Source of the DNA: Hyphomicrobiales bacterium
GTDB lineage: Bacteria > Pseudomonadota > Alphaproteobacteria > Rhizobiales > Rhizobiaceae
Direction of reading: 5' to 3'
Length of the DNA stretch: 64,000 bases
Assembly: GCA_900468625.1 (NCBI GenBank)
Contig: UBUL01000039.1
Coordinates: forward strand, 124,001-188,000
Position numbers and translations under genes: made by a program
Notes under the pieces: model-generated
What the model was told of the DNA's origin: nothing
The model's database searches: none
The model's input: the letters and a program-made list of their open reading frames with translations, nothing else
In this document: positions 14,961-40,235 of the stretch, in pieces
Layout of the letters: every line of letters begins with the position of its first letter
Position numbering within the stretch: the stretch's first letter is position 1

Positions 14961-15133
14961 GGCATGTCTCCTGAATGGCCGTTGAGATCGTCAAGGGCCG
15001 TGGCTTTGAGTTCGAAATTTTTCTTCAACGGATCGTCATCAGCTTGAGTGCGCCTTCGATGTAACTTGCGAGCACAGGCATGTCGGCTATGTCGCGACCG
15101 GTTCTGGCGGCGCAAGGAGCGAGGACGGTCCGT

Positions 15134-15982
15134 TCATCCTGCCTCGCTATCGGCCGTTGTCGGCACGGGAGCATCGCCGAAGCGGAAGCTGGATGCCGTG
15201 AGCCCGCCAGCAAAGTCAGCCTGATGGTATGTAACGGCACCAGGCTCGTCCCTTGCGGCACCGACAGCCACCATCAGCGGAATGAGATGATCCTCGCGCG
15301 GATGCGCGGCACGGGCCGACGGCGCCTGCTCCCATTCGAGCAAGAGCTTTGCGCGCTCATAAGGAGATGAGCGGATCAAAGTCTGTTGGAGCCAGGCGTC
15401 GAACTGACGGGACGGCTCGTAGCCTTCCTTTCCGCGCATCGCCGGCAAATTGTGATAGCTGAGACCGCTTCCGATGATCAGCACGCCCTCGTCACGCAGC
15501 GGCGCCAGCGCGCGTCCCACCTCAAGATGCAATGCAGGATCATAGCCGGCGTCCAGAGAAAGCTGAACGACCGGAATGCTCTCCTCCGGATAAAGCGGCT
15601 TCAATATGCTGAAAGTTCCATGGTCGAAGCCGCGCGCGGGATCGAGCGCTGCCTCGATCCCGCGCGCTTGCAGCAATGCCTGCACGCGCTTGGCAAGCTC
15701 GGGTTCGCCGGGTGCATCATATTTGATATGATAGAGATATTCCGGAAAGCCATGGTAGTCATAGACCATCCCTGGACGGGCTCCAGACGATATAGTGAAG
15801 CCTTCCTCTTCCCAATGACCAGAAACCACCAGAATCGCCCGAACCGTATTCCCTAGTTCGGCGCGCATCTCGATCAGGGAGTGCTCGAGCTTATCGAACC
15901 TATTGCGGAATTCACCGGTCATATAGGGCCATGGACCACCACCATGGCTGATGAAATACGTCGGAAGACGAAGCTTGTTCAC
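15134..15982 (-). CDS. DODA-type extradiol ring-cleavage dioxygenase (class III, LigB fold)
   Basis: A 282-residue LigB-fold enzyme starting at GTG. Metal-binding histidines are recognisable in YFISHGGGPWPY and LDPARGFDHGTFSILKPLYP, with IPVVQLSLDAGYDPALHLEVGRAL and IIGSGLSYHN between and after. This is the DODA/YgiD family, which opens catecholic rings or related phenols in the cytoplasm using non-haem Fe(II) or Zn(II). It is divergent from a LysR regulator (148-bp gap) and followed by DoxX. The same trio is common in proteobacteria, where the natural substrate is usually not established. Confidence 0.88.
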   Translation of the reverse strand: MNKLRLPTYFISHGGGPWPYMTGEFRNRFDKLEHSLIEMRAELGNTVRAILVVSGHWEEEGFTISSGARPGMVYDYHGFPEYLYHIKYDAPGEPELAKRVQALLQARGIEAALDPARGFDHGTFSILKPLYPEESIPVVQLSLDAGYDPALHLEVGRALAPLRDEGVLIIGSGLSYHNLPAMRGKEGYEPSRQFDAWLQQTLIRSSPYERAKLLLEWEQAPSARAAHPREDHLIPLMVAVGAARDEPGAVTYHQADFAGGLTASSFRFGDAPVPTTADSEAG

Positions 15983-16130: not shown

Positions 16131-17054
16131 ATGGATACGTTGACGAGCTTGCGGGTTTTTTGCACCGTGGCGGAGCTTAAGAGCTTCACGGCCGCAGCGG
16201 ACAGGCTTGGCCTCTCGCCGGCAATGGCGAGCAAGCATGTGATGCACCTGGAGAGCCGGCTAGGAACCCGATTGCTGAACCGAACCAGCCGGCATGTCAG
16301 CATGACCGAAAGCGGCATGCTCTATCTCAACCAGACCCGGCAGATGCTCGATGGATTGGACGAGGTGGAGGCAGCCGTCAGCAACGTGACGGTCACACCG
16401 CGCGGGACCTTGCGGCTCAGTGCCCCGGTCTGGGCCGCCAACACGCTCGTCGCCCGAATGATTGCCGAATATCACCAGCGCTATCCCGATGTCCGTTTCG
16501 ACATGGATCTCAGCGGTCGGATCGTCAATCTCGTTGACGAAGGCTTTGATCTGGCCTTGCGGGCGACGGCTCCCGAGCGGCTCGATCCCAGCCTCATCGC
16601 CCGGCCGCTGATGCAGGTTGCCTTCCACCTGGTCGGATCACCGGCCTATCTGTCGCGCACAGGCCGTCCCGCCGCGGTGGCTGATCTCAATGGTCACTCA
16701 TTGCTGGCTTATAGCGGCATGAACTCCAACGGCAGCATAGCGGTCGCTGGAGCGGACGGCGCTCAAACCGTGAATTTCCGCCCCGTCATGCAAAGCGAAA
16801 ACGAGATCATGCTGCATCTGGCGGCCCTCGAAGGCATGGGGCTGGTTTTCCTGCCGACGTGGATGACGCAAGACGATGTTTCCGACGGTCGACTGGAGAT
16901 GGTGTTGCCGAAAGCCGTGACATTCAACGCTACCCTGCATGCGGTTTATCCCAGCAGGAAATACCTTTCTGCGAAGGTGCGCACCTTCATCGACTTCCTT
17001 GCTTCGCGACCAAATCTGTACTCGGCGGCGGTCGAAGACCGGCCGACGATATAA
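16131..17054 (+). CDS. LysR family transcriptional regulator
   Basis: A 307-residue LysR protein. The winged HTH covers residues 1-60 (MDTLTSLRVFCTVAELKSFT, ADRLGLSPAMASKHVMHLE, RLGTRLLNRTSRHVSMTESG). The effector domain follows from about residue 90 with PRGTLRLSAPVWAANTLVA and DEGFDLALRATAPERLDPSLIARPL, like the DhcR/AaeR group. It is transcribed away from the dioxygenase gene, the usual LysR arrangement, so it probably controls that gene and itself through the shared 148-bp region. Confidence 0.9.
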   Translation: MDTLTSLRVFCTVAELKSFTAAADRLGLSPAMASKHVMHLESRLGTRLLNRTSRHVSMTESGMLYLNQTRQMLDGLDEVEAAVSNVTVTPRGTLRLSAPVWAANTLVARMIAEYHQRYPDVRFDMDLSGRIVNLVDEGFDLALRATAPERLDPSLIARPLMQVAFHLVGSPAYLSRTGRPAAVADLNGHSLLAYSGMNSNGSIAVAGADGAQTVNFRPVMQSENEIMLHLAALEGMGLVFLPTWMTQDDVSDGRLEMVLPKAVTFNATLHAVYPSRKYLSAKVRTFIDFLASRPNLYSAAVEDRPTI

Positions 17055-17095
17055 GGTCAAACACTTGCCAAATAGAAACACTGCGCGGAGGCAGA

Positions 17096-18016
17096 CTAAT
17101 TGGCGCGAAGCTCTTCTGCTTCCTGCCAGTCGCGAAGCAGAGAGAACAGCTCCTCGCGGTCCTTCTGATCTAGCCGCGGCAGCCCGGGAACACGGACGGG
17201 ACCGACATCCAAGCCGGAATAGGTGACGGCTTCCTTGACGACCGTAACATTCGCTCCGTTGCGGAATTTGGTTCGCATCCGTTCGAAGGGTTCGAGCTTA
17301 TTGACGATGGCCCGGGCGGCGGCAAAATCACCCTTGGCCAAAGCCGCGTGCACGGCAAGCGACAGTTTTGGCGCGACGTTGACGAGACCGGAGGTGAAAC
17401 CGCGCGCACCGGCGGCCGCAAATGTCGGCGCCCAGCTTTCGGCCAGACCACAGACGAACAGCGCACCATTCGGATCGGAGGCGGCGATCGAGCGCGAAAG
17501 GAGCATCAGATCCGTCGTCGCAAACTTGATGCCCGCGATGTTGCCATGACCTGCCAGGCGGACCATGTCCTCGACGCTGAAGCCGTCGGCACGGACGTAG
17601 GCGATGAGTGGCAGGGGCGACGCTTCCGCCAGATCGCGGAAATAATCGATCTGCGACGCAGGCGCGGCAAAAGGATCGACCGGCTGGTGCGACATGACGG
17701 CCGAAGCGCCGATCGAGGCGGCATCCTTGGCCATGCGGATCGCCTCGCGCAACGAGCGGCCGATCGCCGCCGTGACGGGTGCTTTGCCGTCGACGCCTGA
17801 TATCGCCGCTTCGTGGACGCGGCGGATTTCCTCCGGCGTCAGCGCATAGAACTCGCCGGTATTACCGGCCGCGACGATATTGTGGATGCCGGCAGCCGCC
17901 ACGCGCCGATAGACCTGAGCGGTCATGCGCGGTTCCACCTCGCTATTTGCATCATAGGCTGTGACCGGAACGCCGGAAACGCCGGTCAGTGCGTGCCGCA
18001 TGGTTTCAATGCTCAT
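17096..18016 (-). CDS. DapA-superfamily lyase (KdgD/DHDPS-like)
   Basis: A 306-residue (beta/alpha)8 class-I aldolase/dehydratase. The Schiff-base lysine is in GIKFATTDL, the tyrosine in LIAYVRADG and the phosphate-binding-like loop is VAAGNTGEFYALTPEE. The GNTGEF form and the C-terminal TYSGLDVGPVRVP resemble 5-dehydro-4-deoxyglucarate dehydratases more than biosynthetic DapA. The ATG at 18016 has GAAGGGTAGGAAG before it. It lies 83 bp after the FadR-type regulator gene and is divergent from an importer and an acid-sugar dehydratase, which would supply a 2-keto-3-deoxy acid. The substrate is inferred only. Confidence 0.82.
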   Translation of the reverse strand: MSIETMRHALTGVSGVPVTAYDANSEVEPRMTAQVYRRVAAAGIHNIVAAGNTGEFYALTPEEIRRVHEAAISGVDGKAPVTAAIGRSLREAIRMAKDAASIGASAVMSHQPVDPFAAPASQIDYFRDLAEASPLPLIAYVRADGFSVEDMVRLAGHGNIAGIKFATTDLMLLSRSIAASDPNGALFVCGLAESWAPTFAAAGARGFTSGLVNVAPKLSLAVHAALAKGDFAAARAIVNKLEPFERMRTKFRNGANVTVVKEAVTYSGLDVGPVRVPGLPRLDQKDREELFSLLRDWQEAEELRAN

Positions 18017-18099
18017 CTTCCTACCCTTCGTGATCCATCGAGGTATGAGCAAGGAAGCTTCAGGAAGCCGGCCGCCTCGCCCTTACCTCATCCAATGTC

Positions 18100-18813
18100 C
18101 TAGACGCCCTGGAACATGCGGGCGCGTGCGTTCAAGATATGTCGCTTCATGGCATCGTGCGCTTCGCTCTCTCGCCGTTCGAAGATCGCCTGCACGATCA
18201 CCGCATGCTCATCCTGCACGCTGCGGATCTGCTCCGGCGTCCGCTTGAGGCTGAGGCTGCGGGTCACGGAGTGCCCGATCGCAAAATGCGGCCGGAACAG
18301 TTCGCGGGCCGTGACATGGAACTGATTGCCGGTCGCGACGGCAATCGCATCGTGCAGTTCCTGATCCTCTTCAGCACCAAGGCGGCCTTCGCGAAGACAT
18401 TGTTCTATCTTCTGGAGTGCCGCCGAAATCCGTTCCTTGTCGGCCGGCTGCCAGTTGCGCGCTGCAAGTTCGGCTGCTTCGGCCTCAAGTCCGGCGCGAA
18501 ATTCGAAGAAGCGCTGAACATCGGCAAGCGATCCGACGGGCACCATCTTCAGGACCGAAGAATCCGGCCGTTGCCTGACATAGGAACCGGATCCTTTGCG
18601 CGAAACGATCAAACCGTCCGTACGCAGCCGCTCCAGAGCGTCGCGCACGACAGGTCGCGACGCGCCGAACATTTCTGCGAGCTTGGCTTCCGCCGGCAAC
18701 CGCTCGTTCACGGGAAATGTTCCATCCGCGATCATGGCGACGATCCTCTCATAGATGATGTCGCCGAAGCGCGTGGCGCTCGCATCGGAATCGTTGGCGA
18801 CAGAAAGTCTCAT
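18100..18813 (-). CDS. FadR-subfamily GntR transcriptional regulator
   Basis: A 237-residue GntR/FCD regulator. The winged HTH runs to about residue 70 (RFGDIIYERIVAMIADGTF, ERLPAEAKLAEMFGASRPVV, LERLRTDGLIVSRKGSGSYV) and the all-helical FCD ligand domain has FRAGLEAEAAELAARN, with metal-site histidines in ELHDAIAVATGNQFH and HAVIVQAI. Of three ATG codons in a row, 18813 has AAGG at proper spacing. It sits between the DapA-like gene and the divergent ABC operon and probably controls both. Confidence 0.88.
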   Translation of the reverse strand: MRLSVANDSDASATRFGDIIYERIVAMIADGTFPVNERLPAEAKLAEMFGASRPVVRDALERLRTDGLIVSRKGSGSYVRQRPDSSVLKMVPVGSLADVQRFFEFRAGLEAEAAELAARNWQPADKERISAALQKIEQCLREGRLGAEEDQELHDAIAVATGNQFHVTARELFRPHFAIGHSVTRSLSLKRTPEQIRSVQDEHAVIVQAIFERRESEAHDAMKRHILNARARMFQGV

Positions 18814-18877
18814 CATCATCCTTCGTGAAAGCCGACCAGGGGCATCCATAGCGCATTTCCTGCGCGACAGGGCTACT

Positions 18878-18895
18878 AAATCTGTAAAAATCTGT
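18878..18895. promoter_or_regulatory. Tandem AAATCTGT repeats in the divergent control region
   Basis: AAATCTGT occurs at 18878-18885 and again at 18888-18895, one helical turn apart, between the FadR-type regulator and the importer operon. This is the position expected for an operator, but the motif lacks a clear dyad. Confidence 0.3.
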
Positions 18896-19028
18896 CAACT
18901 CTTGTAATTATCTGAGAACGTAATATGGTCTTGCCGCTGCGCCAGACAGGTGCATCGCGGCGGGTCGGGAGCCTGCCGTATCGGCTTGAGGCAAAGTCCG
19001 GCCGAGGTCAAAAAGTGGGAGGGATTCA

Positions 19029-20975
19029 ATGCGCGATGAAATATTGTCCCGTGGCGTCAGCAGGCGTGCCGTTCTGGGAGGCATGGCGGGAATGGCGGCC
19101 CTGTCTCTGGCCGGCCGAGTAAGCGCCGCCGATGCGGGTGGCGAAGCGCCTGCCCTGGCTGCGCTCGTCAAGGACGGCAAGCTGCCGCCGCTGGCCGACC
19201 GCCTGCCGAAAAAGCCGATGGTCGTCACCCCTTACGAGAAGGTCGGGACCTATGGCGGCACGTTGCGGCGCGGCCTGCGCGGCTCGTCCGATCACAACGG
19301 CATCCTGCGCATGGTGGGCAATCAGAGCCTAGTGCGCTGGAACCTCGAGTTCACCCAGGTCCTGCCGAACCTCGCCGAGCGCTGGGACGTCAATGCCGAC
19401 GCCTCGCAATTTACCTTTTACCTTATTCAAGGCGCCCGCTGGTCCGACGGCCATCCGTTCACCGCCGATGATGTGGTTTTCGCCATCGAGGACTGCGTCA
19501 AAAATACCGATCTCTATAGCGCGGTGCCGGCGCAGCTCTCGGTTGCCGGCAAGGCCGTCGATGTCTCCAAAATCGACGACTACACCGTAAAATTCACCTT
19601 TGCCGCACCGAACGCGCTCTATCTGGAAAATCTCGCGACGCCGCTCGGCCAGCATCCGACGCTGTTTCCGAAGCACTATTGCAGCCAGTTCCTGCCGAAA
19701 TACAATCCGAACGCTGCCGACGACGCCAAGAAGGCCGGGGCCAGCAGCTGGCCCGAATTTTTCCGCGCCCGGTGCGGCGACATCGAAATTCCCTCGCGCT
19801 GGGGCAATCCGGCCAAGCCGACGCTCGATCCCTGGATCGTCAAGGAGCCCTATAGCGGCGGCGCGACACGCGTGATCATGACCCGCAACCCATATTTCTG
19901 GCAGGTCGATACATCGGGCAACCAGCTCCCCTATGTCGACGAGATCAATTTCGGCATCTCGCAGGATGTGGAATCCCTGATGCTCAACGTCATTTCCGGC
20001 AAGATCGATATTCAGGAACGCCATATCAGCGTGCTCGCCAACAAGCCGACGCTCTCGCAAAACATGAAGAAGGGCGACTATCGCCTTCTGACCCTTATCC
20101 CTTCGACCTCCCAGCAGTGCCAGATCTACTTCAACATCACCCACAAAGACCCGGCCATGCGCAAGATGTTTGCCGACAAATCGATAAGGCAGGCGCTCTC
20201 GCTCGGGATCAACCGGCAGGAAATCATCGACATCGTCTACTTTGGCCAAAGCCAGCCCTACCAGGCCGGACCGCGACCCGAGCATCCCTGGTACAACGAG
20301 AAATATGCGCGGCAATTTACCGAATACGACCCGGACAAAGCGGGCGCCATGCTCGATCAGGCCGGTTACGGCAAGAAGGATGCGAACGGCTTCCGTCTGC
20401 GGCCGGACGGCCAGAAGATGTTCTTTGCCGTCGATGTCATTCCAACCCTTTATCCCGATCTGGTCGATGCCCTGGAACTGGTGAAGGCGCATTGGGCGCA
20501 GATCGGCGTCGACATGAAGGTCAACACCATCGAGCGGGCGCTCTACTATACCCGTGGTGACGACAATGCCCATGATGCGCAGGTCTGGCCGGGACCCGGC
20601 GGCCTCGACCCGATGCTCGATCCGCGCGATTTCTTCGCCTTCCATCCGCAGGGCTCGCGCTACGCAATCCCATGGTCGGTCTGGTACACCTCGAACGGCA
20701 AAAAGGGCGAGGAGCCGCCGGAAAGCCAAAAGAAGCGCATGAAGCTTTTCGACGAAGCGCGCTCGACGGCCGATCTCGACAAGCGCGGTGCCGTCATGAA
20801 GCAGATATTCGACATCGCCGCCGAAGAGTTTGAAACCGTTGGACTTTGCCTTGCCGTCGGCGGCTTCGGCATCATCCGCAACAATCTGCACAATGTTCCG
20901 GAAAAGCAGCCGGACAGCTGGTCCTGGCCCAATCCGGGGCCGGCCATGCCGCAGCAATTCTTCTTCTCGAGCTGA
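19029..20975 (+). CDS. ABC transporter substrate-binding protein, family 5 (peptide/opine/oligosaccharide type)
   Basis: A 648-residue periplasmic binding protein. A twin-arginine-like leader is seen (SRRAVLGGMAGMAALSLAG, cleavage near VSAADA). The SBP_bac_5 domain has NLAERWDVNADASQFTFYL, GARWSDGHPFTADDVVFAIED, the ligand-lining DKSIRQALSLGINRQEI and AGAMLDQAGYGKKDANGFRL. The family binds peptides, opines, nickel or oligosaccharides. It is the first gene of a five-gene run (SBP, two permeases, fused ATPase, dehydratase), so the cargo is probably a sugar acid conjugate rather than a peptide; that is inference. Confidence 0.88.
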   Translation: MRDEILSRGVSRRAVLGGMAGMAALSLAGRVSAADAGGEAPALAALVKDGKLPPLADRLPKKPMVVTPYEKVGTYGGTLRRGLRGSSDHNGILRMVGNQSLVRWNLEFTQVLPNLAERWDVNADASQFTFYLIQGARWSDGHPFTADDVVFAIEDCVKNTDLYSAVPAQLSVAGKAVDVSKIDDYTVKFTFAAPNALYLENLATPLGQHPTLFPKHYCSQFLPKYNPNAADDAKKAGASSWPEFFRARCGDIEIPSRWGNPAKPTLDPWIVKEPYSGGATRVIMTRNPYFWQVDTSGNQLPYVDEINFGISQDVESLMLNVISGKIDIQERHISVLANKPTLSQNMKKGDYRLLTLIPSTSQQCQIYFNITHKDPAMRKMFADKSIRQALSLGINRQEIIDIVYFGQSQPYQAGPRPEHPWYNEKYARQFTEYDPDKAGAMLDQAGYGKKDANGFRLRPDGQKMFFAVDVIPTLYPDLVDALELVKAHWAQIGVDMKVNTIERALYYTRGDDNAHDAQVWPGPGGLDPMLDPRDFFAFHPQGSRYAIPWSVWYTSNGKKGEEPPESQKKRMKLFDEARSTADLDKRGAVMKQIFDIAAEEFETVGLCLAVGGFGIIRNNLHNVPEKQPDSWSWPNPGPAMPQQFFFSS

Positions 20976-31116: not shown

Positions 31117-32001
31117 ATGAGTGAGAATTTTGGCCTGTCGGCCGCGCTGGCAACACCCTTCGATGCGGATGGCGAGATTGCGATCCCGGGCGTGATCGGG
31201 CAGGCGAAGCATTGCCTTGCCAATGGCTGCAGAAGCGTCACACTTTTCGGTACCACGGGCGAAGGCGCTTCCATCGGCATGCAGGAACGCAAGCAGGTTC
31301 TGGCCGCGATGATAGCCGCCGGCTTTGCGCCTGAGCAGATCGTCATGGGCGTACTCGTCGATGCGGCCGAGGACGCCGCTGCCCAGGCTGGACAGGCTCT
31401 GGCGCAGGGTGTCCGCAACATTCTCCTCGCCCCGCCATCCTATTTCAAGAACGTCAGCGACGATGGCCTCTTCAAATGGTTCGCGGCCGTTTTCACCATG
31501 CTGGGCACGCATGCCCGTGACGTGATCGTCTATAACATCCCCTCGGTGACGATGGTGCCGCTTTCCATCTCCCTCGTCGGCCGCCTGCGCGCCGCATTTC
31601 CGGATGTCGTCGTCGGCGTTAAGGATTCCTCCGGCGATTGGCCCTATACCGAGGAGTTGCTGAAGACGCATGGTGATCTCATCATTCTGATCGGTGACGA
31701 GCGGCATCTGGCGCATGCGGTGCGTCTCGGCGGCCAGGGTGCGATTTCCGGTCTGGCAAATCTCCTTCCCCGCGAAGTCCAGGCCTTGGCGGAAAAGGGC
31801 GTTGATGATGCCAAGGTCGAGCGTTTCGTCGACCAACTGGTCCAATATCCGGTCATCCCGTCCATAAAGGCCATTCTCGCCCACTTGACGGAAGACGATA
31901 GCTGGCTTGCAGTGCGCCCACCACTCGTGCCATTGAACAGCCAAGATTCCGACACGCTCTTTGCCGCCTTCGGCGCCTTGTTTCGCGCCAGGGCGGCCTA
32001 A
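31117..32001 (+). CDS. DapA-superfamily aldolase (2-keto-3-deoxy sugar acid type)
   Basis: A 294-residue class-I aldolase. Key residues are FGTTGEGASI (Thr-Thr-Gly-Glu loop), IVYNIPSVTMVP (catalytic tyrosine) and GVKDSSGDW (Schiff-base lysine). It is not the lysine-biosynthesis enzyme by context: it is followed by a GntR regulator, a sugar ABC importer and a sugar kinase. The ATG at 31117 has GGAGAGG five bases upstream, so the earlier in-frame start at 31078 is not used. It probably splits a 2-keto-3-deoxy acid derived from the imported sugar. Confidence 0.85.
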   Translation: MSENFGLSAALATPFDADGEIAIPGVIGQAKHCLANGCRSVTLFGTTGEGASIGMQERKQVLAAMIAAGFAPEQIVMGVLVDAAEDAAAQAGQALAQGVRNILLAPPSYFKNVSDDGLFKWFAAVFTMLGTHARDVIVYNIPSVTMVPLSISLVGRLRAAFPDVVVGVKDSSGDWPYTEELLKTHGDLIILIGDERHLAHAVRLGGQGAISGLANLLPREVQALAEKGVDDAKVERFVDQLVQYPVIPSIKAILAHLTEDDSWLAVRPPLVPLNSQDSDTLFAAFGALFRARAA

Positions 32002-32022
32002 CCGAACGGTCGGGAGCTGCTG

Positions 32023-32682
32023 ATGGACGGACCAGGCGAACAGCCGACGCTGAGAGAGAAGGCCTATGAGAGCTTCACGCGCCATCTTCTGGCGCGCGAC
32101 GTTCGGCCGGGGCAGTTCATCTCGCAGCGGCGGCTGGTCGAACTGACGGGACTGACGCTGGGCGCAATCCGCGAATTGATCCCTCGTCTGGAGGCCGAAG
32201 GGTTGATCAAGACGGTTCCGCAGCGCGGATTGCAGATCGCCCATATCGATCTTGATCTGATCCGCGAAGCCTTCCAGCTTCGTCTTTTCCTGGAGAAAGA
32301 AGCCGTCGCTCTGTTTACCCATACGGCATCGGACGAGACGATTGCCAGGCTTCTCAAGGATCATCGCGACATTGCCGATGCCATCCGGGCCGGCGACAGC
32401 TCGCAGGAACTCGAACTTCATGCGCAATCGGTGGATTGGGGTATGCATGATGCCTTCATCGATGCGCTCGGCAACACGATCATCTCGAACGCCTATCGGG
32501 TCAATTCGATCAAGATGCGGCTGATCAGCCAGGACAGGTTCCGCATCAACGGCCATGTTGGTCCGGTCATGGAAGAGCATCTGAAAGTGCTAGAAGCCAT
32601 CGAACGGCGATCCGCCGAGGAGGCTGTTGCCGCGCTCGTATCCCATATCGGCGGGGCGCGGGATCGCGCGCTTAAGATGTAA
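32023..32682 (+). CDS. GntR family regulator (FCD type)
   Basis: A 219-residue GntR protein. The HTH covers about residues 10-70 (AYESFTRHLLARDVRPGQF, RRLVELTGLTLGAIRELIPR, LEAEGLIKTVPQRGLQIAHI) and the helical FCD domain has FQLRLFLEKEAVALFTH, WGMHDAFIDALGN and HLKVLEAIERR, giving the metal/ligand histidines. It is 21 bp after the aldolase gene and 59 bp before the binding-protein gene, so it is probably co-transcribed and is the local regulator of the sugar operon. Confidence 0.87.
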   Translation: MDGPGEQPTLREKAYESFTRHLLARDVRPGQFISQRRLVELTGLTLGAIRELIPRLEAEGLIKTVPQRGLQIAHIDLDLIREAFQLRLFLEKEAVALFTHTASDETIARLLKDHRDIADAIRAGDSSQELELHAQSVDWGMHDAFIDALGNTIISNAYRVNSIKMRLISQDRFRINGHVGPVMEEHLKVLEAIERRSAEEAVAALVSHIGGARDRALKM

Positions 32683-32741
32683 GCAGCTTTAGACAACAGG
32701 CCGCGAATGAGGAGATTTTCGGCCAAAGGAGGAGGAACGGA

Positions 32742-34073
32742 ATGTCATCGTCATTTTTCAATCCGACACGTCGCGGCTTCATGGCCGGCACGGCTGCACT
32801 TGGCGCGGCGAGCCTTCTGGGCGTGCGCACCGCTTCGGCTGCAGTAGACTGGAAGCGCTTTTCCGGCACGACGCTCGAAGTCAACCTGATCAAGAGTCCG
32901 CGCAGCGAAACGATCCTTAAATATCTGAACGAATTCGAAGCACTGACCGGCATTAAGGTCAACGCGGAAGCAACGCCCGAGCAGCAGCAGCGCCAGAAGA
33001 CCACGATCGAACTTTCCTCCGGCAAGCCGAGCTTCGACGTCGTGCATCTGAGCTACCATGTCCAGAAGCGCCAGTTCGAAAAGGGCGGATGGCTCGCCGA
33101 TATCAGCGGCTTCATGAAGGACCCGTCGCTCACCGATCCCTCGTTGACGGAAAGCGATTTCGCCGAGGCTGGCCTGAAATTCGCCAAGGACTCCTCGGGC
33201 GCCATGCGCTCCCTGCCCTTCTCGGTCGATTACTGGATCGTCTACTGGAACAAGGCCTTGTTCGAGAAGAAGGGCCTCGCCTATCCGCAAACCTTCGAGG
33301 ACATGGCCAAGGCCGCCGAGGCGCTGACCGACAAATCGACCAACACTTATGGCTTCGTCGCCCGCGGCCTGAAGAATGCCAACACGCCGGTCTGGACGGC
33401 CTTCATGCTCGGCTATGGCGCGACGCCGCTTTCGGCCGACGGCAAGCTGCAGACGGAGTCTCAAGGAGCCGTGGATGCCGCCAAGCTCTATCAGCGACTG
33501 ATGACGAAATCGGCACCTCCAGGCGTTTCCGGCTTCAATTGGGCGGAAGCGCAATCGGCCTTCCTGCAGGGCAAGATCGGCATGTGGCTCGATGGCGTCG
33601 GCTTCGCGCCGCCGATCGAAAATGCGGAAAAGTCCCGCGTCGTCGGTCAGGTCGGCTATGGCATCATGCCGAAGGGGCCGAATGCGCAGGCTGCGGCAAC
33701 CTTCGGCGACGGTATCGGCATCACCGCCGCCAGCCAGAAGAAGGAGGCGGCCTACCTCTTCTGCCAATGGGCGATCTCGCACGAGATGGGCGCGCGTCTG
33801 CTGCAGGCAGGCGCCGGCGTTCCGTTCCGTCAGTCCATCCTCGAGGATCAGAAGGTCCGCGAGGGCGTGAAAATGCCGGGTGCATGGCTGGATGCCGTCG
33901 CGGGATCCGCCAAGGTCTCTCAGCTTGCGCTGCCCGTCATCATCCCCGTCACGGAATTCCGTGACATCTACGGCGTCGCGCTGACGAACATGATCGGCGG
34001 TGCCGATCCGGTGGCCGAGCTGAAAACGGCAACGGCCCAGTTCGAGCCCGTTCTGGCCCGAAGCGAGGGATGA
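32742..34073 (+). CDS. Sugar ABC transporter substrate-binding protein (family 1)
   Basis: A 443-residue periplasmic binding protein with a twin-arginine-like leader (PTRRGFMAGTAALGAAS, cleavage after VRTASA). The SBP_bac_1 fold shows KYLNEFEALTGIKVN, KPSFDVVHLSYHVQKRQFE, the sugar-site region LPFSVDYWIVYWNKALFEKK, MTKSAPPGVSGFNWAEAQSAF and KIGMWLDGVGFAPP. It resembles binding proteins for polyols and mono- or disaccharides. GGAGGAACGGA precedes the ATG. The two permeases that follow complete the membrane part of the importer. Confidence 0.9.
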   Translation: MSSSFFNPTRRGFMAGTAALGAASLLGVRTASAAVDWKRFSGTTLEVNLIKSPRSETILKYLNEFEALTGIKVNAEATPEQQQRQKTTIELSSGKPSFDVVHLSYHVQKRQFEKGGWLADISGFMKDPSLTDPSLTESDFAEAGLKFAKDSSGAMRSLPFSVDYWIVYWNKALFEKKGLAYPQTFEDMAKAAEALTDKSTNTYGFVARGLKNANTPVWTAFMLGYGATPLSADGKLQTESQGAVDAAKLYQRLMTKSAPPGVSGFNWAEAQSAFLQGKIGMWLDGVGFAPPIENAEKSRVVGQVGYGIMPKGPNAQAAATFGDGIGITAASQKKEAAYLFCQWAISHEMGARLLQAGAGVPFRQSILEDQKVREGVKMPGAWLDAVAGSAKVSQLALPVIIPVTEFRDIYGVALTNMIGGADPVAELKTATAQFEPVLARSEG

Positions 34074-35008
34074 TGGCTTCCACAAGCATCGAAGACACCG
34101 CCTCAAAAGTGGCTGAAGGGAGGAGCAAGCCGAGACGGCTTGCTCCCAACTACTGGCCCTTCGTCATTCCGGCACTGATCGTCATTGCCGCCGTGATCGT
34201 CTTCCCCTGGCTCTTCACCCTCTGGATGAGCGTGAACAAATGGACGCTCGGCCAATCGCAGAGCTTCGTCGGCTGGGACAATTACGTCCGGCTGGCGACC
34301 GACATGCGCTTCTGGGAATCCCTGTGGCACACGGTTCTCTATACCGTGCTCTCCGTGGTCGGTCCGTTGATCCTCGGAACGCTGGCCGCACTGATCTTCG
34401 ATGCGAACTTTCCACTGCGCGGATTTCTGCGCGGCATCTTCGTGATGCCGATGATGGCAACACCCGTCGCTGTTGCGCTTGTCTGGACGATGATGTTCCA
34501 TCCCCAGCTCGGTGTGCTGAATTACCTATTGTCGCTGGTCGGCATCGGACCGCAAGAATGGATCTACAATCAGGCGAGCGTCATTCCTTCGCTCGTTCTC
34601 GTCGAGGTCTGGCAATGGACGCCGCTGGTCATGCTGATCGTGCTCGGCGGTCTCGCCTCCGTGCCGCGCGAACCCTATGAAAGTGCCGAAATCGACGGCG
34701 CCAATGCCTGGCAGAAGTTCCGCTATCTGACGCTGCCGATGATCTCGCCCTTCCTGATGATCGCCGTCATTATTCGCGGCATCGACGCGATCAAGAGCTT
34801 CGACATCATCTACGCGATGACGCAGGGCGGCCCGGGAACGGCGTCCGAGACGATCAATATCTACCTCTACAACACGGCCTTTTCCTATTACGACATCGGC
34901 TATGGCTCGGCCATGGCAGTGGTTTTCTTCATTCTCATCGTCGCACTTTCCTTCATCCTGTTGATGATGCGGCAGCGGACGAAATGGGCGGATGCGGAGG
35001 GACATTGA
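34070..35008 (+). CDS. Sugar ABC transporter permease (UgpA/MalF type)
   Basis: A 312-residue permease with six predicted membrane helices. The start overlaps the binding-protein stop by four bases (ATGA), and a second ATG follows directly. Diagnostic text is PALIVIAAVIVFPWLFTLWM, FVGWDNYVRLATDMRFW, RGIFVMPMMATPVAVALVW and the EAA loop REPYESAEIDGANAWQKFRY, followed by the MalF/UgpA-type FDIIYAMTQGGPGTASE. It partners the next permease in a heterodimer. Confidence 0.92.
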   Translation: MMASTSIEDTASKVAEGRSKPRRLAPNYWPFVIPALIVIAAVIVFPWLFTLWMSVNKWTLGQSQSFVGWDNYVRLATDMRFWESLWHTVLYTVLSVVGPLILGTLAALIFDANFPLRGFLRGIFVMPMMATPVAVALVWTMMFHPQLGVLNYLLSLVGIGPQEWIYNQASVIPSLVLVEVWQWTPLVMLIVLGGLASVPREPYESAEIDGANAWQKFRYLTLPMISPFLMIAVIIRGIDAIKSFDIIYAMTQGGPGTASETINIYLYNTAFSYYDIGYGSAMAVVFFILIVALSFILLMMRQRTKWADAEGH

Positions 35009-35009
35009 G

Positions 35010-35825
35010 ATGAAGCGCTCGACACTCAACCGCATCGGCCTGTTCTTCGTGGCGCTGGTGATCGTTTCGCCTGTCCTCCTGTTCTTCCTCTGGATGATCT
35101 CGCTGTCGCTGAAATACGAGATCGATAACGGCGCCTATCCGCCTATCCTCATTCCGGATCGCTTCGCCTGGACGAACTACGTCAATGTCTTCCGGGAAAA
35201 CAACTTCTTCCTCTATTTCTGGAACTCCATGCTGGTGACGGGGGCCGCGACCCTGCTTGCGCTCGTCATCGGCGTGCCGGCGGGCTACGGCATTGCGCGG
35301 CTGAAGGCGGAGAAGTCGGCAATCGTCATTATGATCGCCCGCATGACGCCCGGCCTCTCCTTTCTCATCCCACTGTTTCTCTTGTTCCAGTGGCTCAACC
35401 TGCTCGGAACGCTCTGGCCGCAGATCATCATCCATCTCGTCGTCACCGTACCGATCGTCGTCTGGATCATGATCGGTTATTTCGAGACGACCCCGATGGA
35501 GCTGGAGGAGGCGGCAGCCATCGACGGCGCCACTCCATGGCAGGTCTTTCGTCTGGTCGCCCTGCCGATCGCGCGCCCCGGCATCGTCGTCGCATTCATC
35601 CTCTCGGTCATTTTCTCTTGGAACAATTTCGTCTTCGGCATCGTGCTTGCCAGTCGCGAGACCCGCACGCTGCCCGTCGCCGTCTACAACATGCTCTCCT
35701 TCGAACAGGTAAGCTGGGGACCGCTGGCTGCCGCTGCCCTGATCGTGACGCTGCCGGTTCTCGTGCTGACCATGTTCGCGCAGCGGCAGATCATTGCAGG
35801 ACTGACGGCCGGCGCCGTCAAATGA
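35010..35825 (+). CDS. Sugar ABC transporter permease (UgpE/MalG type)
   Basis: A 271-residue permease. It begins MKRSTLNRIGLFFVALVIV just after the previous stop (one base apart). The core shows FAWTNYVNVFRENNFFLYF, NSMLVTGAATLLALVIGVPA, GYGIARLKAEKS and the EAA loop TPMELEEAAAIDGATPWQVF. It is a standard MalG-type partner. No ATPase gene of the MalK/UgpC type follows, although such importers need one; a shared ATPase from elsewhere is the likely solution. Confidence 0.92.
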   Translation: MKRSTLNRIGLFFVALVIVSPVLLFFLWMISLSLKYEIDNGAYPPILIPDRFAWTNYVNVFRENNFFLYFWNSMLVTGAATLLALVIGVPAGYGIARLKAEKSAIVIMIARMTPGLSFLIPLFLLFQWLNLLGTLWPQIIIHLVVTVPIVVWIMIGYFETTPMELEEAAAIDGATPWQVFRLVALPIARPGIVVAFILSVIFSWNNFVFGIVLASRETRTLPVAVYNMLSFEQVSWGPLAAAALIVTLPVLVLTMFAQRQIIAGLTAGAVK

Positions 35826-35940
35826 CCTGTCCGACACCGGTGGACAAACAAAGCATTGGGAAGCATCGCAGTGACCGGATGGATATCGCCATCGATCCGG
35901 CGGGTTTGCATTGCGTCTACAAAACAAGCGGGAAAAGCCT

Positions 35941-36894
35941 TTGAGCCCTGTATCCATTTTCGATCCACCCGCTGGTGCGGCCAGGCACATCCTCTGTGTC
36001 GGCGCTGCGGTTCTGGATACGCTCTTTCGCGTGCGCACTCTTCCGCAGGGTCAGGGAAAGGTCCTGCCATATGACATGCTGCAGATCGCCGAGGGTATGG
36101 CTTCGAGCGCGGCCTGCGCCATCGCCAGACTCGGCGGCAAGGCGAGCCTGTGGGGCGCCGTCGGCGATGACGAAACCGCCGAGCGCATCGTCCGCGATCT
36201 TGATGCCGCCGGTATCGATGTCGGCGGCATGTCCCGGGTGCCGGGCGCCCGCTCGGCCGTCTCGACCATTCTGGTGGACGATGACGGCGAAAGACTGATC
36301 GTTCCCTTCTACGATCCGAAGCTGCACCATAAGGAGAAGGAATTCGCAGCGAGCGATATTATCGCCTTCGATGCCGTGCTCGTCGATGTCCGTTGGCCGG
36401 CCTTGGCGCTTCAGGTTCTAAGAGCGGCCAAAGCCATGGGCAAGCCGGCCATTCTCGACGGCGATGTGGCACCTGACGGCATCATCGAGCGCCTCGCCCC
36501 GGAAGCCACGCACATCGTCTTTTCGGAACCGGCCGCGCAACGTCTTGCCGGCGCAAAGCGGCTTCCGGAAATGGTCCTCCGTTTGAAACAGAAATCCGCT
36601 CACGCCTTCATCTGTGTGACGGCAGGTTCGGCCGGCAGCTACTGGTTTGACGAACAAGACAATAAAGTCGCGCATTGCCCGGCCATTACCATCAAGGCTG
36701 TCGATACACTTGCCGCCGGCGATATTTTCCACGGCGCCTTCGCTCTCGCCATCGCGGAAGGAATGGCACCGGAGGACGCGATCCGCTTCTCCTCCATCGC
36801 CGCCGCCATCAAGTGCGAGCTATTCGGGGGACGATCGGGGGCGCCGACCCGCGCCGAGGTGATCGGGCGGTCCCGCCTAGCAATTTCCGACTGA
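35941..36894 (+). CDS. PfkB-family sugar kinase, YihV-like
   Basis: A 317-residue ribokinase-fold kinase. The TTG at 35941 is chosen because GGGAAA precedes it; a TTG at 35911 is possible. It has [35 protein letters not shown] and the substrate lid [15 protein letters not shown]. The C-terminal ATP/catalytic motif reads [13 protein letters not shown], keeping the base Asp but with Ala replacing the first Gly of GAGD. The segments [23 protein letters not shown] and [12 protein letters not shown] match the sulfofructose kinase YihV as I recall it. Together with the aldolase encoded upstream it could run a kinase-aldolase route. The substrate is inferred, not shown. Confidence 0.82.
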
Positions 36895-37013: not shown

Positions 37014-37253
37014 GAGGCCACATCCGCGCTCGATACCGCGACCGAATACGCGATCCAGCAGGCTCTATTGGAGCTTGCGAAAGGACGCACGACGCTGGTC
37101 GTCGCACATCGGCTGTCGACGATCCGCAATGCGGACCGCATCATCGTCATGGGCGACAACGCCATTGTCGAGCAGGGGTCGCATGACGAACTGCTTGCCA
37201 GCCGCGGTGCCTATGCGCGGCTGCATGATGCACAATTCGGGCTTTATGCCTGA
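37014..37253 (+). pseudogene. Remnant of an ABC exporter ATPase domain (C-terminal end)
   Basis: Only the last 79 codons of an ABC exporter (ATM1/MsbA type) remain. Recognisable text starts at [20 protein letters not shown], just inside Walker B, and continues through [20 protein letters not shown] and [16 protein letters not shown] to a normal stop. The aspartate that should precede Glu is tyrosine, and the Walker A, signature motif and membrane domain are missing. Sequence from 36895 to 37013 shows no ABC similarity. This is a deletion remnant, not a working gene. Confidence 0.8.
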
Positions 37254-37327: not shown

Positions 37328-38740
37328 TCACTGGAAATCGAATACACTGAGGCCCGCCGCCATTTCGTCGAGGCCAAGCGGGCGTGTGACCGGCGGTTCG
37401 GCTCTTGCCAGGCAGCCCTGGCGCTCGCATAGACGACAGGCCGGACCGATCGCGATGTGATTGACGCCAAGCGCTGTCCCATAGATCACCTCGTCACGAT
37501 GGGCGATATCGCAGCCGATCAAAAGTGCCGTGTGTCGCACCCTGTCGCCAAAGTCGGCCCGCGGGCCTTCGATCGTTCGCGAGACCGTTAGAATGCTTCC
37601 GCCGTCCGGCATTTGGGCGGAATCGACCAGTATCTGTCCGGGCTGCGCGAAAGCGGCATGGATATTGAGCTTGGGGCAGCCGCCACCGAAGCGCGCCTGC
37701 GGAAAGCCTTGAGCGCCTGTCTTGCGCAGGCGATGGCCGGCATTGTCGATCTCCATCAGGAAAAACGGAATGGCCGATGCGCCCGGGCGCTGCAGGCTGG
37801 TCAGCCGCGTGGCGGCCTGCTCGTAGGAAACGCCGAAACGGGCGCCCAGACCATTGATATCATAATGCATTCGCTGCGCAGCCGAGAGATAGGCGCCGTA
37901 TGGCATCAAAAGAGCATGGGAAGCATAACGCGCCAGCTCGAACCGGGCGATGCGGTTGCCTTCAGGCGTGGAAAGCGCCAGAGCGTTCAGCTCGGCAGCG
38001 ATCTCCTCGCGCAGGGCCAAAAGAGAGACTTCTGTCGCAATCTCACGGATCTGATCGAAAGGCGACAGACGTTCCGACAGAAAAAGCCGCATCGAATGCC
38101 GGTCGTAGCGCCGGCGCAAGCCGGGCATGGAGCGCACCGGCAACAGCCGCACCGCAATTCCATGCTGGCCCTTCAGCCATGCCTTCAACGCACCCACCAT
38201 GTCGTCGCCGGGCGACAAGCGGTCATGAAAGGCCTCGGCGGCATCTTCGATACGCATGAAGAAATTCGGGCGCGACTGCAGGCGGTCATGAACCTCGTCG
38301 AGCGGGAGACGCGGTCCGGCAACCTCGGCAACCCTGCCCTCGCGCGACAGAAGCTCGGCGAGATCGGAAAGCCTTGCCGCCTGCTCGCGATAGGCGCGGT
38401 AGAGCCGGATCACGCCGTTTGCCGCGTTCGGCGCGGCGTCGGCAAGTTCGATCAGTTCCTGATCGCCGGGAACCTCGCCCGCAAGCAGCGGGTCGGCAAA
38501 GACTTCGCGCAATTGCGCCGCACTGCCGCCCTGCTCGCCCTGCAGTTCGTCGAGGTCGACCTTGTAGACCGCTGACAGCTTCAACAGCAGCTGCACCGTC
38601 AGCGGCCGCTGATTGCGCTCTATGAGATTGAGATAGGACGGCGAGATATCGAGCGCCTGCGCCATCGTCGTCTGTGTCAGGCCGAGCCCCATGCGGATGC
38701 GCCGAACCTTAGGCCCGGCAAAGATCTTGCGCTCCACCAT
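37328..38740 (-). CDS. RamB-like XRE/IrrE-type regulator of acetate metabolism
   Basis: A 470-residue regulator. Residues about 8-65 form a Cro/XRE HTH (RRIRMGLGLTQTTMAQALD, SPSYLNLIERNQRPLTVQLL). The middle is an ImmA/IrrE-like domain, and the C-terminal part (DUF2083) ends with a cysteine-containing GPACRLCERQGCLARAEPP motif, which may bind a metal or iron-sulfur cluster. This layout is that of RamB and short-chain acyl-CoA responsive regulators. It is divergent from isocitrate lyase, so control of aceA is the obvious role, by analogy with RamB and aceA in actinobacteria. Confidence 0.85.
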   Translation of the reverse strand: MVERKIFAGPKVRRIRMGLGLTQTTMAQALDISPSYLNLIERNQRPLTVQLLLKLSAVYKVDLDELQGEQGGSAAQLREVFADPLLAGEVPGDQELIELADAAPNAANGVIRLYRAYREQAARLSDLAELLSREGRVAEVAGPRLPLDEVHDRLQSRPNFFMRIEDAAEAFHDRLSPGDDMVGALKAWLKGQHGIAVRLLPVRSMPGLRRRYDRHSMRLFLSERLSPFDQIREIATEVSLLALREEIAAELNALALSTPEGNRIARFELARYASHALLMPYGAYLSAAQRMHYDINGLGARFGVSYEQAATRLTSLQRPGASAIPFFLMEIDNAGHRLRKTGAQGFPQARFGGGCPKLNIHAAFAQPGQILVDSAQMPDGGSILTVSRTIEGPRADFGDRVRHTALLIGCDIAHRDEVIYGTALGVNHIAIGPACRLCERQGCLARAEPPVTRPLGLDEMAAGLSVFDFQ

Positions 38741-38750
38741 ACGTCATACC

Positions 38751-38889
38751 TTTTACAAATTCTCAGCCGTCAATTTTTACATAATTTACAATTTTACTGG
38801 GAGTCAATGTCAACGATAACACATCATAACCCTTTTGTTCAATGGGATCTTCGGGTTTCACTGGCTACCGCAGCGGCGATATTGTAAAA
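38751..38889. promoter_or_regulatory. TTTTACA/TGTAAAA repeats in the aceA-regulator control region
   Basis: TTTTACA occurs at 38751-38757 and 38775-38781, TTTACA at 38785-38790, and the complement TGTAAAA at 38883-38889, all within the 205-bp gap between the divergent RamB-like gene and aceA. The cluster of AT-rich repeats is a reasonable candidate for binding of the XRE regulator. Confidence 0.45.
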
Positions 38890-38945
38890 ATAGTTATGCG
38901 ATCGAGATCGATCGGAGGATCGAAAGGAAATATCGGGAGAGTATA

Positions 38946-40235
<1,290 letters not shown>

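Follow-up and report, generated by a model that had tools for sequence, protein, structure and literature searches.

A Candidate Kdo Utilisation Operon in Rhizobiaceae, Pairing a YihV-like Kinase With a Pyruvate Aldolase

Introduction

What does a bacterium degrade with an operon that combines a relative of the sulfofructose kinase YihV with an aldolase of a different type from YihT? The question is raised by a six-gene operon (31117-36894, + strand) of a Hyphomicrobiales bacterium of the family Rhizobiaceae (assembly GCA_900468625.1; 6.33 Mb in 70 contigs), located in a stretch of 64,000 nucleotides of contig UBUL01000039.1, here called the window, whose nearest named loci are those of Rhizobium dioscoreae, R. 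multihospitium, and R. hainanense. A preliminary description of this DNA saw in the operon a variant pathway for a sulfo-sugar or another unusual sugar. Gene calls and Pfam families confirm the six genes, their places and their common strand, and the operon does appear to be dedicated to an unusual sugar. The comparative evidence, however, points to a 2-keto-3-deoxy acid, most likely 3-deoxy-D-manno-oct-2-ulosonate (Kdo), and not to a sulfo-sugar. We consider it probable, at a moderate level of confidence, that this is a dedicated Kdo utilisation system.

Proposed Pathway

Kdo consists of pyruvate and D-arabinose in aldol linkage. In the proposed pathway, the ATP-binding cassette (ABC) importer would take up Kdo, free or as a small glycoside, the aldolase, forming a Schiff base via its lysine, would split Kdo into pyruvate and D-arabinose, and the YihV-like kinase would phosphorylate either the D-arabinose thus set free, to D-arabinose 5-phosphate, or Kdo ahead of cleavage, to Kdo-8-phosphate. 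A KdsD isomerase would then convert arabinose 5-phosphate to ribulose 5-phosphate, to be fed into the pentose phosphate pathway, and the GntR/FCD protein would sense the substrate. A KdsD/KpsF homologue is encoded in the genome (G000:C29; 305 bits, cut-off 204). We favour Kdo because the aldolase clade often stands beside tripartite ATP-independent periplasmic (TRAP) importers resembling SiaP and beside companion enzymes fitting D-arabinose, and because the Rhizobium kinase stands where some relatives carry arabinose-handling enzymes. As to the chemistry, N-acetylneuraminate lyases, which belong to the superfamily of the aldolase, are reported to make Kdo from D-arabinose and pyruvate, although their rate is 1-1.5% of that reached with N-acetylmannosamine (PMC4016182).

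As to the order of the two enzymes, a route in which the kinase acts first, converting Kdo to Kdo-8-phosphate, from which the aldolase would release pyruvate and arabinose-5-phosphate, seems to us a rather doubtful variant. Were it to operate, the conserved Lys and Arg of the kinase would hold the Kdo carboxylate, and the route would present a catabolic mirror of Kdo biosynthesis; it is the retention of these YihV-subfamily residues that leaves room for a kinase acting on the acid. We know of no Kdo 8-kinase described so far. A phosphorylated substrate would be suggested by additional basic residues in the aldolases from kinase-bearing loci, but inspection by eye revealed no clear set, and either order of the two enzymes may apply.

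The Aldolase and Its Genomic Contexts

Judged by its sequence, the product of the first gene (31117-31998, +; Pfam DHDPS, 119 bits) is a Schiff-base pyruvate aldolase of the dihydrodipicolinate synthase/N-acetylneuraminate lyase (DHDPS/NAL) superfamily, and the earlier statement that it is not YihT-like holds. The Schiff-base Lys (VKDS) and the catalytic Tyr (YNIP) align with those of Escherichia coli NanA, and both are conserved (the Tyr in YNIP or YHIP) whether or not a kinase adjoins, with GDER present in most rows. The enzyme falls far under the equivalog cut-offs of both DapA (TIGR00674, 120 bits, cut-off 206) and NanA (TIGR00683, 64.5 bits, cut-off 382). Its best match among solved structures is 3b4u, named dihydrodipicolinate synthase (392 bits), the runner-up scoring 78 bits.

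Genes within 9 kb of the aldolase were compared between 33 target loci (referred to, as are all compared loci, by L numbers), with aldolases of 41-61% identity, and 37 control loci, with aldolases of 33-41% identity; the targets exclude close Rhizobium-Agrobacterium loci and include L262 as well as L100, L101, L103, and L104. The gene that follows the aldolase in the window encodes the GntR/FCD regulator (32023-32682, +; Pfam FCD and GntR), and this regulator accompanies the aldolase, with homologues in 30/33 targets (weak, 24%, in L228) versus 6/37 controls. Also more frequent in the targets are the TRAP subunit DctM (21/33 versus 2/37), the window-type binding protein (11/33 versus 2/37), the YihV-type kinase (5/33 versus 0/37), a ribokinase-like protein (2/33 versus 0/37), and a pair composed of an FGGY protein and an isomerase-like neighbour (3/33 versus 0/37). 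Of this pair, the FGGY member is identified as a pentulose kinase by TIGR01315 (536 bits, cut-off 409); the label of its neighbour is soft (L-fucose isomerase C-terminal match of 27.1, Pfam cut-off 29.3; no solved relative). An aldo-keto reductase (AKR), a lactonase, and a FucU-like protein occur together in four of the targets. Among the controls, this set is found in four of the six that possess a GntR homologue (L245, L248, L249, L253) versus one of the 31 that do not (L243, on a cut contig), suggesting that the sugar enzymes track the GntR.

One example of such contexts is presented by Roseomonas gilardii, in which the aldolase and GntR genes are divergent from those for a binding protein, permease, AKR, amidohydrolase, FucU, and UgpC. 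Its binding protein is 71% and its aldolase 53% identical to those of the window, and AKR-lactonase-FucU occupies the place of the Rhizobium kinase. Another example is Phyllobacterium, with the arrangement kinase-aldolase-GntR-importer-UgpC-FAH. A third example is Nitratireductor, with aldolase-GntR-AKR-FAH. L103 is the one target with both a kinase and an AKR. In bacterial pentose pathways, an AKR that uses both D-arabinose and L-fucose and is induced by D-arabinose clusters with D-arabinonate dehydratase and 2-keto-3-deoxypentonate dehydratase, the latter reaction being catalysed by FAH-family enzymes (PMC6336799). In some of the relatives, the companion enzymes thus appear compatible with the release of D-arabinose by the aldolase; L231, considered below, is an exception.

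Additional genes were seen in some of these loci. A second DHDPS-family gene is found in L234, L248, and L253, and a phytanoyl-CoA-dioxygenase-like protein, recognised by eye, is encoded beside the aldolase in L200 (9043-9876), L248 (2194-2976), and L253 (9685-10587).

TRAP Importers Beside Aldolase Relatives

The solute-binding subunits (DctP) of the TRAP importers beside the aldolase are of two types. The first has as its best solved relative 4pf6, which we take to have been solved with Kdo bound, followed by the sialic-acid SiaP proteins; against 4pf6, the L192 protein scores 307 bits and that of Qingshengfaniella 285 bits. For the second type (L205), SiaP-type chains come out on top (168 bits), level with 4p9k. 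In a DctP tree of 31 rows, 4pf6 groups with the proteins of L230 (86% identity), L233 (86%), and L232 (81%). All three loci have the aldolase close by, L230 and L233 also have its GntR, and in L230 a YihV-subfamily kinase, on a long branch, adjoins the aldolase. A review section credits the study behind 4pf6 with 'lipopolysaccharide components' among its TRAP ligands and names nothing more specific (PMC5812351). The codes 2rbc, 3b4u, and 4pf6 retrieved, among the matches listed from the open-access literature, only seemingly unrelated papers, and other papers on TRAP importers contained nothing about 4pf6.

One of the TRAP loci, L194, encodes, within a few kb of its main module, a DHDPS-family protein with the NanA-like motif GSTGEAF (by eye; 15004-15909) and a second SiaP-like TRAP importer (16838-19631). 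In two further aldolase-GntR-TRAP loci (L286 and L293, of Qingshengfaniella and Alloyangia), an alpha-L-rhamnosidase of glycoside hydrolase family 78 adjoins. Such an enzyme would suit Rha-Kdo from plant rhamnogalacturonan II (RG-II). This fit is not relied on here: the aldolases of Qingshengfaniella and Alloyangia are only 30 and 34% identical to that of the window, and a query with the rhamnosidase revealed no homologue in the 33 targets or the 37 controls, with only two of 289 genomes of the class possessing one.

Weighing Kdo Against Other Substrates

A number of observations weigh against Kdo, some of them suggesting specific alternatives. The isomerase, the pentulose kinase, the AKR, the lactonase, and FucU are all absent from 24 of the 33 targets. 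By raw counts, the targets show no excess of the last three over the controls (AKR and lactonase each 5/33 and 5/37, FucU 4/33 and 5/37), and an FAH homologue is found in two targets (L101, L234) and also in one of the 37 controls, devoid of the GntR (L252). Two loci of Rhizobiaceae, L099 and L102, encode a related kinase and yet possess no aldolase match at E 1e-40. The binding protein of the window (32742-34073, +; SBP_bac_1, 138 bits) is nearest, among solved chains, to 5iai (108 bits) and to 4rya, 'Sorbitol' (92 bits), which places it, as far as sequence goes, closest to binders of sugars and polyols and not to an acid binder. The weight of the 4pf6 matches, moreover, hangs on a presumed ligand.

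The AKR, the lactonase, and FucU would suit L-fucose equally, and this leads to one alternative, the tail of an L-fucose-type pathway, in which the aldolase would convert 2-keto-3-deoxy-L-fuconate, or some other short keto-deoxy acid, to pyruvate and lactaldehyde (in the case of fuconate). Both the lactonase, at 224 bits with the fuconolactonase model (cut-off 400), and the FucU-like protein, at 81 bits (cut-off 141), belong to L-fucose-type families, and the AKR family takes D-arabinose and L-fucose alike (PMC6336799). We nevertheless hold this alternative to be unlikely. Inspection by eye of the aldolase surroundings in L195, L198, L200, L245, and L249 revealed no fuconate dehydratase, and neither did two enolase-superfamily queries; the genes resembling those for pentulose kinase and 2-keto-3-deoxypentonate dehydratase indicate a pentose; the importers are SiaP-like; and many loci consist of aldolase, regulator, and importer alone. 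The kinase, moreover, would be left without a role.

The protein in L231 that passes the cut-off for galactonate dehydratase (315 bits versus 311) and adjoins the module directs attention to 2-keto-3-deoxygluconate (KDG), 2-keto-3-deoxygalactonate (KDGal), or a related hexonate, processed by the kinase and then the aldolase in the manner of the semi-phosphorylative Entner-Doudoroff pathway. KDG aldolases of the DHDPS family do exist, and the window enzyme matches the archaeal KDG aldolase model. At 67.7 bits, however, the match is far under the cut-off of 390, the kinase belongs outside the KdgK line, and pentoses or fucose-like sugars are the substrates of the remaining companion genes, making a hexonate, in our opinion, rather improbable.

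The DctP proteins themselves suggest further acids. Those that are 44-50% identical to 4pf6 accompany dehydroquinate genes in Paracoccus, Loktanella, Chelatococcus, and Sagittula, and two loci whose DctPs are closer to 4pf6 (L294, 74%; L228, 65%) carry an aldolase relative along with shikimate/quinate genes, the L294 aldolase being 57% identical to that of L230 and the L228 aldolase 42% identical to that of the window. A quinate-like acid might thus be the substrate, or another ulosonic acid, which the SiaP-like DctPs would suit, such as the nonulosonate KDN or the RG-II acid Dha. The genes for handling the product fit D-arabinose, as would be released from an octulosonate of the Kdo configuration, and the NanA score, far under its cut-off, argues against a nonulosonate; we would give such acids a low probability.

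The Kinase and the Question of Sulfoglycolysis

The kinase gene (35911-36894, +) has an uncertain start, the listed TTG codon at 35911 lying inside the ATPase remnant described below and an alternative TTG at 35941 overlapping the stop codon of the remnant. Of the solved structures, 2rbc ('Sugar kinase') matches the protein best (402 bits), followed by the E. coli sulfofructose kinase 7ag6 (184 bits), with the best ribokinase at 102 bits. The motifs DVRW, DGD, and FSEP, attributed to YihV in the preliminary description, do align with YihV. The scores for the ribokinase equivalog (131 bits, cut-off 300) and for KDG/KDGal kinase (42 bits, cut-off 400) are low, and in a tree of 54 rows, inclusive of RbsK, KdgK, and paralogues from the same genome, the YihV-like subfamily with the window kinase is split from all of these (support 95/95). 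A KDG kinase or ribokinase identity is rejected on these grounds, and the firm clustering with either that would have refuted the preliminary description was not found. Within the subfamily, the kinase falls into a clade of its own, of 28 rows (100/99), without E. coli YihV and without the kinases L173, L174, and L176, whose surroundings (L212, L213, L215) resemble yih clusters by eye. Long branches, such as those of the L230 kinase, the paralogues, and KdgK, make positions in this tree unsure.

In YihV, K27, N109, and R138 are, we presume, the residues that bind the sulfonate. All eight rows shown for the Rhizobium operon group retain the equivalents of K27 and R138 but have Pro in place of N109, and the YihV loop VGGGPAA reads IAEGMAS in the window kinase. 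Neither K27 nor R138 is diagnostic, as the YihV-subfamily rows shown retain the former without exception and the latter almost without exception.

These data bear directly on a variant sulfoglycolysis, in which the kinase would phosphorylate a sulfo-ketose and the DHDPS-type aldolase would split the product. Consistent with such a pathway are the subfamily of the kinase, with its Lys and Arg, and the presence on another contig of a YihS-family protein (G000:C45:4136-5335; 36% identical to E. coli YihS, 249 bits). On the other side, in addition to the separate clade and the replaced Asn, the operon encodes neither an isomerase, a sulfoquinovosidase, nor a YihT-type aldolase, and YihS, YihQ, and YihU are all missing from it. 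At E 1e-5, the genome contains a single YihT-like match, a weak one of 74 bits some 146 kb away, and no match to YihQ (in a search without a positive control genome), and the binding protein scores only 52 bits against SmoF. Given the kinase phylogeny, its residues, and the absent partner genes, we reject sulfoglycolysis, considering it very improbable.

Other members of the YihV subfamily are found in diverse contexts. L210 and L219, from the same family (genus g73), combine such a kinase, with Thr at the R138 position, with a glycosidase of family GH31 (glycoside hydrolase 31), an L-fucose-isomerase-like protein, and an ABC importer, possibly representing an unusual-sugar cluster. In L211, L221, and L222, the kinases are found with an aldolase of the DeoC/LacD-type family, a zinc alcohol dehydrogenase (by eye), and an ABC importer, and in L221 and L222 additionally with an enolase-superfamily protein. 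The kinases of L099, L102, and L164-L167 (genus g73) are close to the operon clade; tyrA-, hisC-, and metX-like genes are located near those of L099 and L102 (by eye).

Conservation of the Operon and the Lost ATPase

In Rhizobium, the operon is a stable unit. Among 73 loci fetched by the kinase, 70 maintain all six genes with order and strand unchanged, and the three exceptions (L027, L031, L066) are truncated by contig ends. Across the family, the kinase is recognised at E 1e-60 in 15 of 199 genomes, this one included. Of the 14 others, seven possess the gene order of the window, four have the kinase first, followed by aldolase-GntR-binding protein-permeases (L100, L101, L103, L104), and L099, L102, and L105 encode the kinase without the other operon genes, the L105 contig measuring just 7.9 kb.

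The importer is composed of the family-1 solute-binding protein and two permeases (34070-35008 and 34992-35825, both +; BPD_transp_1, 76 and 72 bits). The binding protein may carry a twin-arginine (Tat) signal (TAT_signal, 19.7 bits, under the cut-off of 22.7), and its structure prediction was of low confidence, with a mean predicted local distance difference test (pLDDT) score of 36 both from the single sequence and with an alignment of 19 rows. No ATPase gene is present in the window operon, as had been noted; this is, however, probably the result of a deletion, as 40 of the 73 relatives possess a UgpC/MalK-type ATPase gene immediately ahead of the kinase (partial in L024 and L066; a stricter recount gives 39, apparently without L073, where the gene and the kinase match overlap by 63 bases). 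The gap between the second permease and the kinase contains a stretch (35826-35944, +) that resembles an ATPase C-terminus and ends in a stop codon at 35944, a probable remnant of the deleted gene. Its match to the C-terminus of the L019 ATPase is weak (tblastn, 29.6 bits, 26% identity), and L039 carries a similar stretch (26.9 bits). At E 1e-60, at least 34 proteins of the genome match this ATPase, among the 150 of 250 candidates that were scored, the top one 61% identical, and so the importer likely uses an ATPase shared with other systems.

Relation to Known Systems

The closest parallel in layout is the nan operon for sialic acid, comprising NanA, NanK, the GntR-FCD regulator NanR, and an importer. 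If the operon indeed serves for Kdo utilisation, the two would also have their chemistry in common, that is, import of a 2-keto-3-deoxy ulosonate, a class I pyruvate lyase, and a kinase for the released sugar. They differ in that the window aldolase is no NanA equivalog, its kinase is of the PfkB family, while NanK is of the ROK family, an epimerase is lacking, and the expected substrate has eight carbons and would yield D-arabinose. With the sulfo-Embden-Meyerhof-Parnas pathway, the operon shares the PfkB subfamily of YihV and the Lys and Arg discussed above, but it differs in the kinase clade, the Pro in place of N109, the loop, and the type of aldolase. The aldolases of the 4pf6-type TRAP loci belong to the clade of the window enzyme, L230 and L233 additionally possess the GntR, and L230 a YihV-subfamily kinase; the window, by contrast, has an ABC importer and a kinase on another branch of the subfamily. 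Finally, the structural-genomics entries 2rbc and 3b4u are close relatives of the kinase and the aldolase, respectively, and were, to our knowledge, deposited without any function.

Kdo is a constituent of nearly all Gram-negative outer membranes and of plant RG-II, and thus bacteria living in soil or on plants must encounter it in quantity. An aldolase activity on Kdo was reported in the 1960s, but we know of no gene assigned to it, and among the matches listed for Kdo aldolase or Kdo catabolism in the open-access literature (subscription papers fall outside it), passages of PMC4016182 and PMC2431125 included, there was no gene assignment. If our proposal is correct, the operon would supply the gene for this aldolase along with a companion kinase, 2rbc and 3b4u would gain a function, and a tempting sulfo-sugar annotation would be corrected.

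Neighbouring Genes

The genes upstream of the aldolase vary among the Rhizobium loci examined, and no further gene constantly adjoins the operon, the commonest extra family (F9, in a ranking that excludes the operon genes, the ATPase, and the antisense frames of these) being present in 19 of 88 sequences. The operon of Rhizobium johnstonii 3841, with RL_RS32965 for the aldolase and RL_RS32990 for the kinase, adjoins repABC on pRL12. Downstream of the kinase, the window contains a remnant of an ABC exporter (37014-37250, +), which shares 94% identity with the final 79 residues of an exporter of 573 aa, intact behind the kinase in L025. It is followed by genes that were assigned by eye to a divergent helix-turn-helix regulator (37328-38740, -) and an isocitrate lyase (38835-40235, +), both families of which are also found downstream of the operon in L019 and L025.

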